From positions 1 to 37,918 of the forward strand of contig NZ_JAGAYD010000044.1 of NCBI RefSeq assembly GCF_017940685.1: a stretch of 37,918 bases of DNA, given 5' to 3'. The DNA is from Butyrivibrio sp. (lineage in GTDB: Bacteria > Bacillota > Clostridia > Lachnospirales > Lachnospiraceae). The notes under the pieces are model-generated. The model was not told where the DNA came from. It was given only the letters and a program-made list of their open reading frames with translations, and searched no databases. The translations under genes and the position numbers were made by a program. Below, piece after piece: positions 11,006 through 19,141 of the stretch. Each line of letters starts with the position of its first letter. The first letter of the stretch is position 1.

Positions 11006-11055
11006 TACAAACTGTGTTAAAACGTAGCACTAAGATTGTTTTTGAGGAGAAGATT

Positions 11056-12699
11056 ATGAAAAAGGATAAGCTTAAACCGATGCTGTTTTCCAACTTAAAG
11101 AGCTATACCGGGAAGCAGTTTGTAAGTGATGTTGTGGCTGGAATAATTGTTGCCATCATCGCACTGCCACTGTCTATTGCTCTGGCTCTTGCATCCGGAG
11201 TAGGTCCGGAAGAGGGCCTTTATACTGCAATTGTGGCTGGATTTATCATTTCCTTCCTGGGAGGAAGCAGAGTACAGATAGCTGGCCCTACAGCAGCTTT
11301 TGCCACAATCGTTGCTGGTATTGTTGCTACAAAGGGAATGGAGGGTCTTGCACTTGCAACGATCTTCGCTGGTATCCTTCTGATACTAATGGGACTATTT
11401 AGACTTGGAACGCTCATTAAGTTTATCCCATATACTATTACAACCGGTTTTACGGCAGGAATAGCGGTTACAATTGCTATCGGACAGGTCAAGGATTTCC
11501 TTGGACTTACATATCCGGCTGGAACAGCAACTGTTGAAACTATGGATAAAGCCGCAGCCATCGTAAAAAATATTTCAACCTTCAATCTTCAGGCACTTAT
11601 TGTAGGACTTATCTGCCTGGCAATCCAGATTGTATGGCCCAAGATCAACCAGAAGATTCCTGGATCACTTATTGCAGTAATCGTTGGAATCCTGATGGTC
11701 AAGTTCCTTAACATGAATGTAAATACTATTGGAGACCTCTACGAGATAAAAGGCGCGCTTCCAACCTTAAAGGTTCCAGCCTTCAGCCTTTCAACTATCA
11801 GGTCTGTGGCAGGAGATGGCTTTACAATAGCTATTCTTGCGGCTATAGAATCTCTTTTATCCTGTGTTGTAGCAGACAGTATGATCAACTCACACCACAG
11901 ATCAAACATGGAGCTTATTGCACAGGGTGCTGGTAATATTGGTTCAGCACTTTTTGGAGGAATCCCAGCTACTGGAGCTATTGCCAGAACAGCAGCAAAC
12001 ATCAAAAACGGCGGACGTACACCTGTAGCAGGTATGGTTCATTCACTTTGCCTTGTACTGGTTCTTTTAGTCCTTATGCCTTACGCAGCACTTATCCCTA
12101 TGCCAACAATTGCTGCAATCCTGTTCATGGTGGCTTACAATATGTGCCAGTGGAGAACTTTTGTACATCTTGTTAAGACAGCTCCAAAGAGCGACACCAT
12201 TGTACTTGTCATCACATTTGTACTTACTATCGTATTTGACCTTGTTGTAGCTATTGAGATCGGCATGGTTCTTGCCTGCCTCTTATTCATGAAGAGAATG
12301 AGCGAGGAGTCAGGAATCCGTGGATGGAAGTACTATGATCCGGACGATGATCCTGATGGTCCAGAGCTTAAAGAGATACCTAAGCACGTAAGAGTTTATG
12401 AGATCAGCGGACCAATGTTCTTTGGCGATGCTGACCTTATAGCAGACATCAGTATCAAGGATTTCACAAGAGCGCTTGTTATCCGTATGCGTGGTGTGCC
12501 AGCAATTGATGCAACTGCCATGCACTCCTTTGAACAGCTCTATGAAAAGTGCAAAAACAATGGCGTACAGCTTGTATTCTCACACGTAAACGAGCAGCCA
12601 CTTAGCACAATGGAAAAAGACGGATTTGTAGAACTTGTAGGAAGAGAAAACTTCCTTCCACATATTGATGAAGCTCTTAAGAGAGCAGCAGAGATTTAA
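11056..12699 (+). CDS. SulP family anion transporter with STAS domain
   Basis: 547 aa from the ATG at 11056 (GGAG-type site at 11046-11049); an upstream in-frame start at 11014 would fall at the predicted transcription start and is rejected. The membrane domain (residues ~15-420) carries the SulP signature ALPLSIALALASGVGPEEGL, the segment GSRVQIAGPTAAFATIVAG, and the late motif AAIESLLSCVVAD. The cytosolic C-terminus (~440-545) is a STAS domain: VYEISGPMFFGDADLI, and ALVIRMRGVPAIDATAM with the conserved D-A/S-T region. SulP proteins carry sulfate, bicarbonate or C4-dicarboxylates; the substrate is not decidable here. No sulfate-assimilation genes are adjacent. Confidence 0.92.
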   Translation: MKKDKLKPMLFSNLKSYTGKQFVSDVVAGIIVAIIALPLSIALALASGVGPEEGLYTAIVAGFIISFLGGSRVQIAGPTAAFATIVAGIVATKGMEGLALATIFAGILLILMGLFRLGTLIKFIPYTITTGFTAGIAVTIAIGQVKDFLGLTYPAGTATVETMDKAAAIVKNISTFNLQALIVGLICLAIQIVWPKINQKIPGSLIAVIVGILMVKFLNMNVNTIGDLYEIKGALPTLKVPAFSLSTIRSVAGDGFTIAILAAIESLLSCVVADSMINSHHRSNMELIAQGAGNIGSALFGGIPATGAIARTAANIKNGGRTPVAGMVHSLCLVLVLLVLMPYAALIPMPTIAAILFMVAYNMCQWRTFVHLVKTAPKSDTIVLVITFVLTIVFDLVVAIEIGMVLACLLFMKRMSEESGIRGWKYYDPDDDPDGPELKEIPKHVRVYEISGPMFFGDADLIADISIKDFTRALVIRMRGVPAIDATAMHSFEQLYEKCKNNGVQLVFSHVNEQPLSTMEKDGFVELVGRENFLPHIDEALKRAAEI

Positions 12700-12734: not shown

Positions 12735-12849
12735 ATTAAAAAGATAATAAAAATGAATGGAAAAGAAACTAAATATAATGAAATTGTATTAGAATATAAA
12801 TGTGATATTGATACTTATGGGTAGCCACGTTTTTTAAAGAGGTGACTGA

Positions 12850-15744
12850 ATGGAAAAAGCAAATAAAACCGGCTTTGACAGATATCTTTCTCCGTTACAC
12901 GTTTGGGCGCTTTCCTTCGGATGTGCAGTTGGATGGGGAGCTTTTGTAATGCCAGGAACAACGTTCCTGCCCTCAGCAGGACCAGTAGGAACATGCTTTG
13001 GGCTTATCCTTGGAGCCTTTGTCATGTTCATCATTGGTATCAACTATCATTTTCTGATGAACAGATTTGATGACTACGGTGGAACCCTTACTTACACCGT
13101 CAAAACACTTGGGTACGATCATGGATTCATGAGTGCCTGGTATCTGATGCTTGTTTACATAGCAATCATTTGGGCCAATGCATCAGCACTTGCGCTGATC
13201 AGCAAAAATCTCTTTGGCAGCACATTTCAATTTGGCTTTTACTATAAGATCCTTGGGTATGATGTTTATTTTGGGGAGATTTTGCTGTCAATAGTAGCTG
13301 TGCTTATCTGCGGATCACTGTGCATCAATTCAAAGCGCCTTGCTGTTTCAGTTCAGGTTGTTCTTGCAATTGTTCTGGTTCTTGGAATAACAGTGGTGGT
13401 AGTGGCTGCTGGAGCTGATCAGAGTGTTATGCACACAATTCCCGAGCCAATGTTCGCCCGTAATAATGGAACGCCTCTTCGTCAGTTCCTTTTCATAATA
13501 GCTCTTTCTCCCTGGGCCTTCGTGGGCTTTGAATCAATTTCAAACTCCACAGCAGGCTTTAAGTTTTCTGCAAAGCATTCGCTTCTGATCATGACAGCAG
13601 CTATTTTTACCTCTGTCTTTTCCTATGTTGCGCTGTCTCAGCTGGCAGTTAAGGCATTTCCAGATGGTATCACAAGATGGGATGAGTATATGAAAAGGCT
13701 TGGAGAATTTGACGGCGTTAAGGGCCTTCCGACTTTTTACGGCGCATACAGCGCTTTGGGAAATGTGGGCGTATACATTTTGGGAACAGCTGCACTGGCA
13801 GCTATTTTAACAGGCCTTATCGGTAACTTTATAGCCGCATCAAGGCTTCTTTACTCCATGGCTGATTATGGAATGCTACCAAAATGGTTTGGAGAAGTCA
13901 ACAGCGATTTCATTCCCAGAAATGCACTTTTATTCCTTATGGGGATATCAACTTTGATCCCCTTCCTTGGAAGGACTGCCATTGGGTGGATCATAGACGT
14001 CAACACCATTGGTGCTGCAATTGCGTACGCATACACTTCTGTGGATGCTTATCTTATTGCAAAAAAAGAGAAAAACACTGAGATCATGGTCACGGGAATA
14101 GCCGGGGCTGTATTATCTGTTCTTTTTATGGTCTATTTCATGCTTATCTTTGCAGATGGTATGTCCACAGAGAGCTACCTTATCCTGGCTACCTGGAGCA
14201 TCCTGGGATTTCTTTGTTTTAGGATAATCTTTGAGAGAGATGGTAAAAAGCGCTTTGGTAAGTCTACCATTGTGTGGATAGGTCTTTTGTTCCTTATATT
14301 CCTGACGTCCCTGATGTGGGTTAAAAGAGCTACTGATGAGATGACAGCACAGGTGGTCTCTGAGATCAGCTCATATTATGAACAGCACGCCGGAGGCAGG
14401 AGCATAAGCGAGATTGAGGAAACGGAAAACTATATAGCTGGCCTTCTTGCTCAGACTGACCTTAAGATCACCAAAAACATAATCGTTCAGATGAGCCTTA
14501 ATATCATTTCTCTTGTGATCATGTTCAGTATTTACACTATCATGTCAAAGAGACAGCATTCTGCAGAGATTGAGATTGCCAAAGCAAATGAAAGAAGCCG
14601 GGCTAAGACTGTCTTTTTATCCAACATGTCCCACGACATCAGAACTCCCATGAATGCCATAATAGGGTATATCGACCTTGCAGAGAATGAGGCATCGACC
14701 TATGAGGAACTGCAGGAATACCTTTCTAAGATCAAGGCCTCCAGTAAACACCTTCTTGCCCTTATAAATGATGTACTGGAAATGAGCCGCATAGAGAGTG
14801 GCAAGATGGAGCTTGAGCTGGTTCCGGTGAATCTAAAGAGCACAATGGATGATCTTAGGGATCTCTTTTCAACTCTTATGAGAGAAAAGAAGATCGAGTA
14901 CATTGTGGATACAGAAGGAATCAGCAATGAGTACGTGTACTGCGACAAGAACAGGTTAAACAGGGTGCTTCTAAATCTTGTGAGCAATGCCTACAAGTTC
15001 ACTCCTGAAGGTGGCAAGGTCACAGCTTCGGTAAAAGAAGAAAAGCAAAGGATAAAGGAAAAGGCATTATATGAGATAAGCGTAAAGGACAATGGAATTG
15101 GAATGTCCAAGGAGTTTGTAGATAGGGTTTTTGACGCCTTTGAAAGAGAGGATGATACGGCAGTAAGCGGCATACGTGGAACCGGCCTTGGAATGAGCAT
15201 TGTTAAAAGAATTGTAGATATGATGGGCGGAACTATAGATGTTAAGTCCGAAAAGGGAAAGGGCACAGAGTATGTCATAAAGCTTGAACTACAACTTCAG
15301 TCAGAGGAAGATATAAAGAAGGCAAAAGAGTCCCAGGCAAACAGGCCAAGTATCATAGATTTTACTGGCAAAACAGCTCTTTTGGTAGACGACATGCCAA
15401 CAAACAGGAAAATTGCAGTAAAGCTTCTTGAGCGCAATGGCTTTACAGTTGAACAGGCTGAAAATGGCCAGGAAGCAGTGGAGATTGTAAGAAATAGTAC
15501 CCCGGGGCATTTTGACGTTATCCTTATGGATGTCCAGATGCCACTTCTTAACGGCTATGAAGCCACCATGGCCATAAGGAGCCTTCCTGATCCCGTGGCT
15601 TCACAGGTGCCTATCGTGGCAATGACAGCCAATGCCTTCTATGAGGACATCCGAAAAGCTAAAGAAGCAGGAATGGACGGCCATATAGCCAAGCCAATAG
15701 ACGTAAAAAAGATGTTGGAGGAGCTTACAAGGATCCTTGGCTAA
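12850..15744 (+). CDS. Amino-acid permease fused to hybrid histidine kinase (transporter-sensor)
   Basis: 964 aa in one uninterrupted frame, with AGAGGTG just upstream of the ATG. Residues ~1-490 are an APC-superfamily permease: GCAVGWGAFVMPG is the helix-1 substrate motif, and about 12 hydrophobic segments follow. A ~53-residue polar loop (491-543, presumably outside) leads to another membrane helix (544-564). Next come a short coiled linker, a dimerisation box MSHDIRTPMNAIIGY with His595, and a catalytic domain with N-box NAYKF, G1 DNGIGM and G2 GTGLGM. A receiver domain completes it, with acidic pair D847/D848, phospho-acceptor Asp894 (LMDVQMP), Thr926 and Lys948. There is no DNA-binding output domain and no separate response regulator next door, so phosphate probably goes to a distant partner or the receiver acts by interaction. 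The design recalls CbrA (a sodium/solute symporter fused to a kinase) but with a different transporter family. The ligand is unknown. Confidence 0.92.
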   Translation: MEKANKTGFDRYLSPLHVWALSFGCAVGWGAFVMPGTTFLPSAGPVGTCFGLILGAFVMFIIGINYHFLMNRFDDYGGTLTYTVKTLGYDHGFMSAWYLMLVYIAIIWANASALALISKNLFGSTFQFGFYYKILGYDVYFGEILLSIVAVLICGSLCINSKRLAVSVQVVLAIVLVLGITVVVVAAGADQSVMHTIPEPMFARNNGTPLRQFLFIIALSPWAFVGFESISNSTAGFKFSAKHSLLIMTAAIFTSVFSYVALSQLAVKAFPDGITRWDEYMKRLGEFDGVKGLPTFYGAYSALGNVGVYILGTAALAAILTGLIGNFIAASRLLYSMADYGMLPKWFGEVNSDFIPRNALLFLMGISTLIPFLGRTAIGWIIDVNTIGAAIAYAYTSVDAYLIAKKEKNTEIMVTGIAGAVLSVLFMVYFMLIFADGMSTESYLILATWSILGFLCFRIIFERDGKKRFGKSTIVWIGLLFLIFLTSLMWVKRATDEMTAQVVSEISSYYEQHAGGRSISEIEETENYIAGLLAQTDLKITKNIIVQMSLNIISLVIMFSIYTIMSKRQHSAEIEIAKANERSRAKTVFLSNMSHDIRTPMNAIIGYIDLAENEASTYEELQEYLSKIKASSKHLLALINDVLEMSRIESGKMELELVPVNLKSTMDDLRDLFSTLMREKKIEYIVDTEGISNEYVYCDKNRLNRVLLNLVSNAYKFTPEGGKVTASVKEEKQRIKEKALYEISVKDNGIGMSKEFVDRVFDAFEREDDTAVSGIRGTGLGMSIVKRIVDMMGGTIDVKSEKGKGTEYVIKLELQLQSEEDIKKAKESQANRPSIIDFTGKTALLVDDMPTNRKIAVKLLERNGFTVEQAENGQEAVEIVRNSTPGHFDVILMDVQMPLLNGYEATMAIRSLPDPVASQVPIVAMTANAFYEDIRKAKEAGMDGHIAKPIDVKKMLEELTRILG

Positions 15745-17328: not shown

Positions 17329-17682
17329 ATGGCTGTAGAATTTGGAGAAGTACAGATGAAGTTTGCAGAGCTCATCTGGGAGAAGGAACCTGTTGGATCA
17401 GGTGAACTTGTTAAGCTCTGCGCGGAGAGGTTTGACTGGAAGAAGTCCACAACCTATACGGTCCTTAAAAAACTCTGTGACAAGGGACTGTTCCAGAACG
17501 TGGAGGGAATTGTTACTTCCAGGATTTCCAAGGAAGATTTTTACACAAAAAAGAGCGAGGAATTTGTAGACGAGGCATTTGGGGGCTCACTACCAGCTTT
17601 TTTGGCAGCGTTTACCTCACATCAACAACTATCAAGAAAAGACATTGAGGAAATACGGAGTATCATTGATAAGATTCAGTAA
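17329..17682 (+). CDS. BlaI/MecI/CopY family transcriptional repressor
   Basis: 117 aa, typical size. The N-terminal winged helix is clear: AELIWEKEPVGSGELVKLC, then WKKSTTYTVLKKLCDKGLF (recognition helix region), then a wing with GIVTSRIS. The C-terminal helices (FVDEAFGGSLPAFLAAF onward) match the dimerisation and protease-sensitive region of BlaI. GGAG precedes the ATG. It is followed after 31 nt by an M56 metalloprotease, the standard BlaI-BlaR1 pairing, so it most likely represses its own operon through the dyad in front of it and is inactivated by its partner. No beta-lactamase or penicillin-binding gene is in the window. Confidence 0.9.
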   Translation: MAVEFGEVQMKFAELIWEKEPVGSGELVKLCAERFDWKKSTTYTVLKKLCDKGLFQNVEGIVTSRISKEDFYTKKSEEFVDEAFGGSLPAFLAAFTSHQQLSRKDIEEIRSIIDKIQ

Positions 17683-17713
17683 AGGCATCATGTGAAGGCG
17701 AGAGGGAAAGAGT

Positions 17714-19141
17714 ATGGGGCTAATCTTTAGTAAAGTACTTGAGATGAGTATGGCGGCTGTTCTTTTGATAGTTGCGGTAACACTTCTTAGGATACCGCTG
17801 AAAAAAGCGCCAAAGTGGTTCATGGGGGTATTGTGGACTATTGTGGCACTTAGGCTTCTTGTGCCACTTCAGGTGGAATCAGGTCTTGGCTTTATGCCTG
17901 ATTTTGGACAGGTTACAAGTCTTGTTACAGGCAGGGAAGCTTTAAATGACAGCAGCGTGTATACCTCTGAAGATACTGTTTTACCTTCTTCAGAGCTGAC
18001 CAAAAACGAGGCTTTAGCTGACGGTGGCGGGATTTCTAAGACTACTCTGGATCAGAAAAAGGGAACACTAAGTTACCTTACAATCCTTTGGATTGTGGGT
18101 ATGATCATGGCTTTTGGCTATGCATTATACAGTTACATTTCTATTAGGTTAAAGACAAGAGTGTCCATCAGATACAGATCCAGCGATAAGGTTTACGTAT
18201 GTGATGACATAGATACACCTTTTATATTTGGACTTGTAAAACCCGTGATCTACCTGCCATCAGGCCTTGACCACGACACAATTGTCAATGTAATAGCCCA
18301 TGAGAAGGCACATCTTAAAAGAATGGATCACTTAAGAAAAGGCCTTGGCTTTTTTATCCTGACTATCCACTGGTTTAACCCGTTTGTGTGGCTTTCTTAT
18401 ATCTTGTTTTGCAGAGATATAGAGCTTGCCTGCGATGAGAGAGTTATCAGCACCATGTCTACAGATGAAAAGAAATCCTACGCAGAGTCACTGTTATCCT
18501 GCAGCACTAAAAAAAGAAGGATGATGGTATACCCTGTAGCCTTCGGAGAAGTTGCAGTGGGTACCAGGATCAGGCAGATCTTTAATTACAAAAAACCTAC
18601 ATTCTATCTTGTACTTTTGCTGGTTGCGATAACAGGAACACTTGCCACCTGCTCTTTTACAAGAGCAGCAGATAAGGTTACCATAACCCCCTATAAAATT
18701 GACGTAGTATCTGCCCCTGACAGAATAAGAACAGAGAATGTGGAGGCTATAGCAGAGCCAGTAATGGCCAGGACCAGAATAGAAGAAATAAGGTGGAAAG
18801 AGGAATCAGAGGAAGTAAAAGTTGGGCAACAGGCGAAAGCTGATGAGATAGAAAAAAGCACTTCAAGTGTTCCTTCTGAAGTAAAAATCGAAGACAACGG
18901 TAAAGGAGCTTCTGTAGATGTAAAAGAGGGAAACACCCATGTCAGTGTTTCAGCAGATGACTTAAACAAGCTGACTTCTGTAGAACCTGTAAAAGAAGTT
19001 GTTAATGTTACAGAAGATATCGTAGACGAAGTGACAGATGGCATTTTGATAGATGGAGAAATTGCTGACACTGCAGTAGACACCGCATTTAGTATTACCA
19101 CAGACACATTGGGACTAGTTGACAGCATACTTGGATGGTAA
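17714..19141 (+). CDS. BlaR1-like M56 membrane metalloprotease lacking a PBP sensor domain
   Basis: 475 aa. Hydrophobic segments near the N-terminus (residues ~8-28, 35-52), at ~120-140 and around 215-235 match the M56 membrane core. The zinc site is HEKAH (His196, Glu197, His200), with the downstream ELACDE motif (Glu237). A last membrane segment (YLVLLLVAITGTLATC) ends near residue 310. The remaining ~165 residues should be outside the cell: they are polar, rich in Glu, Asp, Val, Thr and Lys, with no SxxK/KTG penicillin-binding motifs. In BlaR1 and MecR1 this place holds the beta-lactam sensor, so this protein must sense something else or use a partner. Its stop overlaps the ribosome binding site of the next small gene. 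Confidence 0.88.
   Translation: MGLIFSKVLEMSMAAVLLIVAVTLLRIPLKKAPKWFMGVLWTIVALRLLVPLQVESGLGFMPDFGQVTSLVTGREALNDSSVYTSEDTVLPSSELTKNEALADGGGISKTTLDQKKGTLSYLTILWIVGMIMAFGYALYSYISIRLKTRVSIRYRSSDKVYVCDDIDTPFIFGLVKPVIYLPSGLDHDTIVNVIAHEKAHLKRMDHLRKGLGFFILTIHWFNPFVWLSYILFCRDIELACDERVISTMSTDEKKSYAESLLSCSTKKRRMMVYPVAFGEVAVGTRIRQIFNYKKPTFYLVLLLVAITGTLATCSFTRAADKVTITPYKIDVVSAPDRIRTENVEAIAEPVMARTRIEEIRWKEESEEVKVGQQAKADEIEKSTSSVPSEVKIEDNGKGASVDVKEGNTHVSVSADDLNKLTSVEPVKEVVNVTEDIVDEVTDGILIDGEIADTAVDTAFSITTDTLGLVDSILGW

Follow-up and report, generated by a model that had tools for sequence, protein, structure and literature searches.

A Butyrivibrio protein joining an amino-acid permease to a hybrid histidine kinase, and the putative sensor-module clade to which it belongs

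The window analysed here is a stretch of 37,918 nucleotides from the genome of a Butyrivibrio sp. One of its genes, a single open frame with an ATG start, encodes a protein of 964 amino acids in which an amino-acid permease of the APC type precedes a complete hybrid histidine kinase (Table 1). Pfam places AA_permease_2 (PF13520) at residues 13-434 (6e-17; 62 bits against a cut-off of 27), AA_permease at 17-434, HisKA at 586-651 (7e-21), HATPase_c at 699-815 (4e-28) and Response_reg at 844-959 (6e-26), each above its gathering score. The PF13520 match is significant across the 12-helix core and assigns the N-terminal half to that permease family, and the HisKA histidine, the G boxes of the ATPase domain and the receiver aspartate of a hybrid histidine kinase all sit on one chain. 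A residue check found the histidine within SHDIRTP, G1 as DNGIG, G2 as GTGLGM and the receiver aspartate in place; the N box, NAYKF with N713, was read by eye from the sequence. The first-pass annotation of this DNA had described such a protein with its catalytic residues intact, and both the open frame with its Pfam domains and the residue check bear this out; the permease fold on whose presence in residues 1-490 it had made its reading depend is there. Pfam matched neither an SSF (SLC5 transporter) domain nor an ammonium transporter domain in the 964-residue protein.

Table 1. Features of the fusion gene, in window coordinates.
Feature	Position	Strand	Size or basis
Whole gene: APC permease, TM13, outside loop, TM14, HisKA, HATPase_c, REC	12850..15744	+	964 aa
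Likely ribosome-binding site, aaagaggtg	12836..12844	+	read from sequence
APC permease core, residues 1-465	12850..14244	+	Pfam; profile match to GkApcT; alignment
GWGAF, residues 28-32 (TM1); PWAFVGFE, residues 221-228 (TM6)	in permease core 12850..14244	+	alignment
Two extra helices and outside loop, residues 466-575, loop about 492-543	14245..14574	+	hydropathy scan
HisKA, phospho-acceptor His595 (codon 14632-14634)	14605..14802	+	Pfam, residue check
HATPase_c with G1 (747-751) and G2 (777-782)	14944..15294	+	Pfam, residue check
Receiver domain, Asp894 (codon 15529-15531)	15379..15726	+	Pfam, residue check

Upstream of the fusion lies a gene for a SulP-family transporter with a STAS domain (11014-12699), and a SulP-type gene stands at most three genes upstream of the fusion in seven loci, the window included. 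Elsewhere in the window, proteins of 117 and 475 amino acids encoded at 17329-19141 resemble, by reading, a pair of BlaI/MecI-type repressor and BlaR1-type peptidase.

The fusion is real and under selection. A single scan of genome contigs with the N-terminal part returned three loci. The same join is found in an uncultured Butyrivibrio MAG (L041; 96% identity, kinase end cut by its contig) and on a 605-kb contig of Butyrivibrio sp. CB08 (L042; 73% identity across the N-terminal part), and so is not an assembly error. An artefact of assembly or annotation joining two genes, which the first-pass annotation had named as a way in which it could be wrong, is already refuted by these independent genomes and by many further ones with the same join, and we give it practically no weight. 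For the whole gene, dN/dS is 0.08 against CB08, where dS is saturated, and 0.16 against the MAG; for residues 1-465 the values are 0.10 and 0.16. The gene is the only copy in its genome: 45 of 46 protein matches begin at residue 526 or later, in the kinase and receiver part, and the permease of an unfused relative, used as a query on this genome, matches this gene only.

Relatives of the fusion are widespread. Matches occur in 27 of 61 genomes of the genus, and in 24 of these 27 the frame exceeds 750 aa. Minimal counts for the wider ranks, where at most three or four candidates per genome were scored and unfused or differently fused members may therefore be missing, are at least 67 of 397 genomes of the family (N-terminal part, E<=1e-20), at least 21 of 391 of the class (profile, E<=1e-40; at least 7 with fused frames longer than 700 aa, the window's genome included) and at least 21 of 398 of the phylum (profile; at least 4 with such frames, again counting the window's genome). 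From 27 of the 67 family genomes, 33 signalling members were fetched and typed, the window's among them. The search for further proteins combining an APC permease with HisKA, HATPase and REC, which the first-pass annotation had proposed, thus found many. The clade is limited neither to kinases nor to one bacterial family: its permeases also carry GGDEF, EAL and HD-GYP domains, and members turn up in further families, both within the class and across the phylum.

Outputs found on this permease are HK-REC, HK-REC-REC (L056, L059), HK lacking REC (L118 and L119, the HATPase_c of the latter falling just below the Pfam cut-off), GGDEF (L058, L094, L095, L098, L117), GGDEF-REC-GGDEF-EAL (L060, L061), PAS-GGDEF (L062, L063) and HD-GYP (L099, L115). 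Pfam typing covered 22 signalling members; for L159, L136 and L137 the type comes from the tree or from a kinase match, for L080 and L081 from similarity to L079, while the last 20 fetched places were typed by seed searches, and some HK-REC rows by their match to the window's kinase. An apparent length of 1780 aa for the L050 member proved false, the extra part being a run of N. Two loci (L140 393-6601, L141 6504-12519) hold tandem pairs of APC-kinase fusions lacking a receiver, and these adjoin a CheB methylesterase-type protein (by Pfam in L140 only), a possible link to chemotaxis.

In a first tree of 88 permease cores, a branch with 100/100 support separates the 58 signalling members, without exception, from the 30 others; the nearest unfused permeases are those of L076, L077 and L078. 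This tree left out some close unfused matches, so 20 places were fetched and 18 rows added. The resulting tree of 106 rows has on one side (100/100) 62 rows: 60 members with HK-REC, HK-REC-REC, HK, GGDEF, GGDEF-EAL, PAS-GGDEF or HD-GYP in frame, together with L191 and L192. On the other side stand 44 rows, comprising 32 unfused permeases, 11 fusions to iron-containing alcohol dehydrogenase (Fe-ADH) and one to a cytidylate-kinase-like domain. L192 is cut by its contig end and has no output in frame. In L191, on the minus strand, the permease frame closes within the outside loop, and TM14-like, GGDEF and EAL sequence follows directly in another frame, so that L191 counts as a split member of the family and not as a simple transporter; the split may be either real or a sequencing error. 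Among the 62 rows there is no intact, closed unfused member.

Rows dropped from the trees were near-duplicates (L091, L093, L157) and those whose best stretch covered fewer than 380 profile positions in the first set or fewer than 300 among the added rows (L184 and L203, both unfused). Three frames of 883-888 aa at about 26% identity (G346, G243, G353), some signalling-length rows of the genus and additional unfused matches whose identity did not exceed 28% were left out; enzyme-fused permeases at about 25% identity were kept as outgroup. Among these, L079 (6490-9153) and L083 (7695-10415) encode APC permeases fused to a whole iron-containing alcohol dehydrogenase, and L082 (7151-9280) one fused to the cytidylate-kinase-like domain. 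Seed searches found seven further permease fusions of the Fe-ADH type.

Within the signalling side, the cyclic di-GMP outputs form one cluster of 13 rows (100/100; first tree, 58 members), inside which lies an HK-REC member, L064. In a kinase tree with a small control set of 22 kinases, 36 of 47 APC kinases fall in one group (99/94) along with a non-APC kinase of the window's own genome (L002). Under a permease of the same clade, L056 and L143 carry kinases of a different group (a trio at 99/97 within a group of nine at 94/96, the deepest split being weak at 70/69), which indicates that outputs have been exchanged. A single origin of the permease with exchange of its outputs fits these trees best.

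Between permease and kinase, a hydropathy scan shows two extra helices, at about 473-491 and 544-562, separated by an outside loop of about 52 residues. The loop agrees with the one first described at 491-543, which had been paired with one extra helix rather than two. The scan missed TM10, one of the 12 core helices, so that the count of 14 helices rests on alignment to the transporter GkApcT. The TM13-loop-TM14 pair recurs in all 59 signalling members examined, whatever their output, with a loop of either 46-60 or 12-33 residues. Compared with the near-identical MAG protein, no stretch is better conserved than the loop (98%, dN 0.008); compared with CB08 it is the least conserved, at 55% identity versus 74% for the permease core. 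HisKA begins at residue 586, about 20 residues past the last helix, which leaves no room between transporter and kinase for a STAC domain (72 aa in CbrA), and none is present there.

By sequence, SLC7-type transporters of the GkApcT and CAT kinds are among the closest solved structures to the permease half. A single-sequence search against solved structures matched CAT1 at 2e-7, and a family-profile search matched GkApcT (5oqt) at 3.5e-18 over nearly its whole length. The comparison with known transporters suggested at the outset was made through sequence matches; the structure predicted for the full protein from a four-row alignment has a mean pLDDT of 42, too low to draw on. The ligand of GkApcT is reported to sit between the unwound stretches of its helices TM1 and TM6, and transport to depend on Asp237 in TM6B, the alanine mutant of which lost all function (PMC5803215). 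The TM6B aspartate is described as highly conserved in SLC7. Of the GkApcT residues named in that account, Thr43, Glu115, Lys191 and Asp237 map through the profile alignment to W29, V102, V175 and E228 here. The backbone of the TM1 GxG and TM6 G-F motifs is kept, with G28 in 88/88 rows, G30 in 87/88 and G226 in 88/88.

At the Asp237 position, all 58 signalling rows of the first set have Glu and 27 of the 30 others Asp; in the 106-row set the counts are Glu in 62/62 clade rows and Asp in 41/44 outside. The window's protein, with Glu228, departs from the SLC7 aspartate and belongs to the APC sensor-module clade, as defined in this analysis, by its side of the tree, its gate Glu, its TM13-loop-TM14 pair and its signalling output. 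The binding scaffold is thus kept, with one gate position marking the change. The transport function of the clade is probably reduced or changed. Outright loss of transport is made less compelling by the conservative nature of an Asp to Glu change and by the ligand-site glycines of TM1 and TM6 kept in nearly all 88 rows. Loss of a TM6 'PQ' motif was rejected as a sign of lost transport: GkApcT and CAT1 also lack it, so it marks the nearest relatives only. The positions of GkApcT Glu115 and Lys191 were likewise rejected as markers, non-acidic and non-Lys residues occurring there in unfused relatives too.

The genes beside unfused relatives disagree on the ligand. L076 holds a sulfopropanediol cluster, with dehydratase and activase above the cut-offs of their equivalog models; in L180 the neighbours are a sulfoacetaldehyde acetyltransferase (above cut-off) and an aminotransferase, in L177 the lysine 5,6-aminomutase beta subunit (above cut-off), and in L077 a choline-kinase-like protein and a BCCT transporter (above cut-off in Pfam, below it in NCBIfam). 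The nitrogen-source signal proposed in the first-pass annotation finds no support in these sulfonate, taurine-type, lysine and choline-type contexts. In L076 (1008-7967) one of the nearest unfused permeases is accompanied by Fe-ADH and a TauE exporter and is possibly the transporter of the sulfopropanediol cluster. The two tandem unfused relatives of L180 (2756-9709), lying between its two named genes, suggest a taurine importer.

The window's own gene neighbours, a SulP transporter and a PhoH-PIN protein by Pfam, include no regulator, as had first been noted; for part of the kinase-type relatives this does not apply, as genes for HPt proteins or for receiver-GGDEF or EAL regulators stand beside them. 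Around 40 HK-REC-type loci, HPt genes make up 8/148 of the genes at distance 1-2 and 0/184 at distance 3-5 (Fisher p 0.0014), and genes combining a receiver with GGDEF, EAL or HD-GYP 11/148 and 0/184 (p 1e-4). Both p-values are optimistic, since these very neighbourhoods supplied the seeds of the HPt profile and several of the loci are closely related. A gene for a cyclic di-GMP enzyme lies at most two genes away in 16 of the 40 loci and an HPt gene in 8; 24 loci, the window's among them, have neither within three genes. Domains of 10 sampled neighbours were assigned by Pfam. In five loci (L048, L070, L156, L157 and L158; Pfam on that of L157) a chemotaxis-receptor (MCP) gene directly adjoins the APC-kinase fusion.

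Candidate partners occur elsewhere in the window's genome. Contig C156 ends with genes for a 123-aa REC protein and a 437-aa REC-GGDEF protein and with the start of an HPt gene (L172 7978-8246), the rest of which is at the end of contig C1 (L174 4028-4289); because both end inside the same HPt gene, the two contigs probably adjoin. The REC, REC-GGDEF and HPt products are 96%, 97% and 94-98% identical to those of genes beside the fusion in L158, and 82%, 90% and 87-93% identical to those in L157. At the place of the fusion, C1 has an EAL-like protein. These orthologues, of the kind that the first-pass annotation had proposed to look for, make a relay plausible in the window's strain. The genome has 12 HPt matches in all, and the HPt protein could serve other hybrid kinases.

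Taken together, we think it fairly likely that the protein is a receptor kinase which arose from a transporter and controls cyclic di-GMP by way of a phosphorelay. A small extracellular solute would bind the permease core between TM1 and TM6, and the movement would pass through the observed TM13-loop-TM14 pair into the dimerisation helix of the kinase. His595 would be phosphorylated and pass the phosphoryl group to Asp894 of the same protein; both residues are present, and the chemistry of His to Asp transfer is established for hybrid kinases. From there a separate HPt protein would carry it to a receiver-GGDEF or receiver-GGDEF-EAL regulator and so alter cyclic di-GMP, a step suggested by gene neighbourhood in part of the relatives and, for the window's strain, by the orthologues found outside the window. 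Sister proteins have the permease fused directly to GGDEF, EAL or HD-GYP, and there it would act without a relay. The kinase-relay and directly fused outputs together point to a sensor module that can be exchanged between outputs and is frequently connected to cyclic di-GMP. A broader version, which we consider somewhat less likely than not, is that one Bacillota APC lineage lost transport and became a universal input module shuffled onto HK, GGDEF, EAL and HD-GYP outputs, an extracellular solute setting cyclic di-GMP directly or via HPt; from the context of some unfused sisters, the solute would possibly be a sulfonate or an omega-amino compound, taurine for example.

The permease may instead still import its substrate while the kinase reads occupancy or flux, as in a CbrA-type transceptor. 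Purifying selection on the full-length permease (residues 1-465) and the kept glycines of TM1 and TM6 agree with this, and the CbrA of P. putida is reported to transport histidine as well as signal (PMC7096432; preprint PMC13022988). Nevertheless, the 62 clade rows hold no intact, closed unfused permease, the gate has changed from Asp to Glu in every one of them, albeit conservatively, and a comparable fusion, Ks-Amt5, is reported to have lost transport (PMC5764959), so that we regard continued import as rather unlikely. We find it improbable that the permease is a mere membrane anchor, with TM13-loop-TM14 or the cytoplasmic part reading the signal as in ordinary two-helix kinases. The constant presence of a helix pair with a short outside loop, like a usual small sensor, and the strong conservation of that loop relative to the MAG would suit an anchor, as would the report that CbrA could still be activated without its SLC5 part (PMC7096432); on the other hand, some family members have a loop of no more than 12-33 residues, and relative to CB08 it is the least conserved stretch.

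If a receptor kinase acting on cyclic di-GMP is the right reading, the requirements for turning a transporter into a receptor become directly testable, with unfused sisters, fused members and output exchange all at hand. Some sixty members of the lineage were sampled; their permeases apparently share a single origin, their outputs are of five or more kinds, and within the sample one gate residue tells both sides apart. Butyrivibrio-like clostridia and others would also have an extracellular signal feeding into cyclic di-GMP. On present sequence evidence, the clade suggests that a nutrient transporter became a general-purpose sensor in bacteria.

Transporter-derived receptors as such are already known and are described as rare (PMC11109136, PMC13022988). 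In the open literature, which covers subscription journals little, we found no report of a protein that joins an APC permease with a kinase or GGDEF domain, and no earlier report of a modular APC sensor clade. In the SLC5-STAC proteins CbrA and CrbS a complete transporter is N-terminal to the kinase, as here, and CrbS also has a REC. The same module is reported with either HK or GGDEF output (PMC5715377, PMC7096432), the latter being a close parallel to the modularity of the APC clade. The CbrA-like plan put forward in the first-pass annotation stands, on a different transporter family (AA_permease_2, with no SSF), without support for its nitrogen-source signal. SLC5-STAC proteins have a 13-helix SLC5 part and a cytoplasmic STAC, whereas in the present protein an APC/SLC7-type core is followed by a helix pair that encloses an outside loop. 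The APC clade further includes EAL, HD-GYP and HPt-linked versions. RpuS is reportedly also counted among the SLC5-STAC sensor kinases. Ks-Amt5 is likewise an uptake transporter turned sensor, fused directly to its kinase without PAS, HAMP or STAC; it has the Amt trimer fold and, in the account available, no receiver is described (PMC5764959), whereas the fusion studied here combines an APC fold with a hybrid kinase and belongs to a family with several outputs. GkApcT and CAT-type SLC7 proteins (PF13520) are transporters lacking an output domain, and the related permease half is here fused to kinase and receiver. The yeast transceptor Gap1 is an amino-acid permease with a signalling role, reportedly towards protein kinase A, and we know of no output domain fused to it. 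With Gap1 the Butyrivibrio protein shares a permease linked to signalling, and it differs in carrying its output on the same chain.
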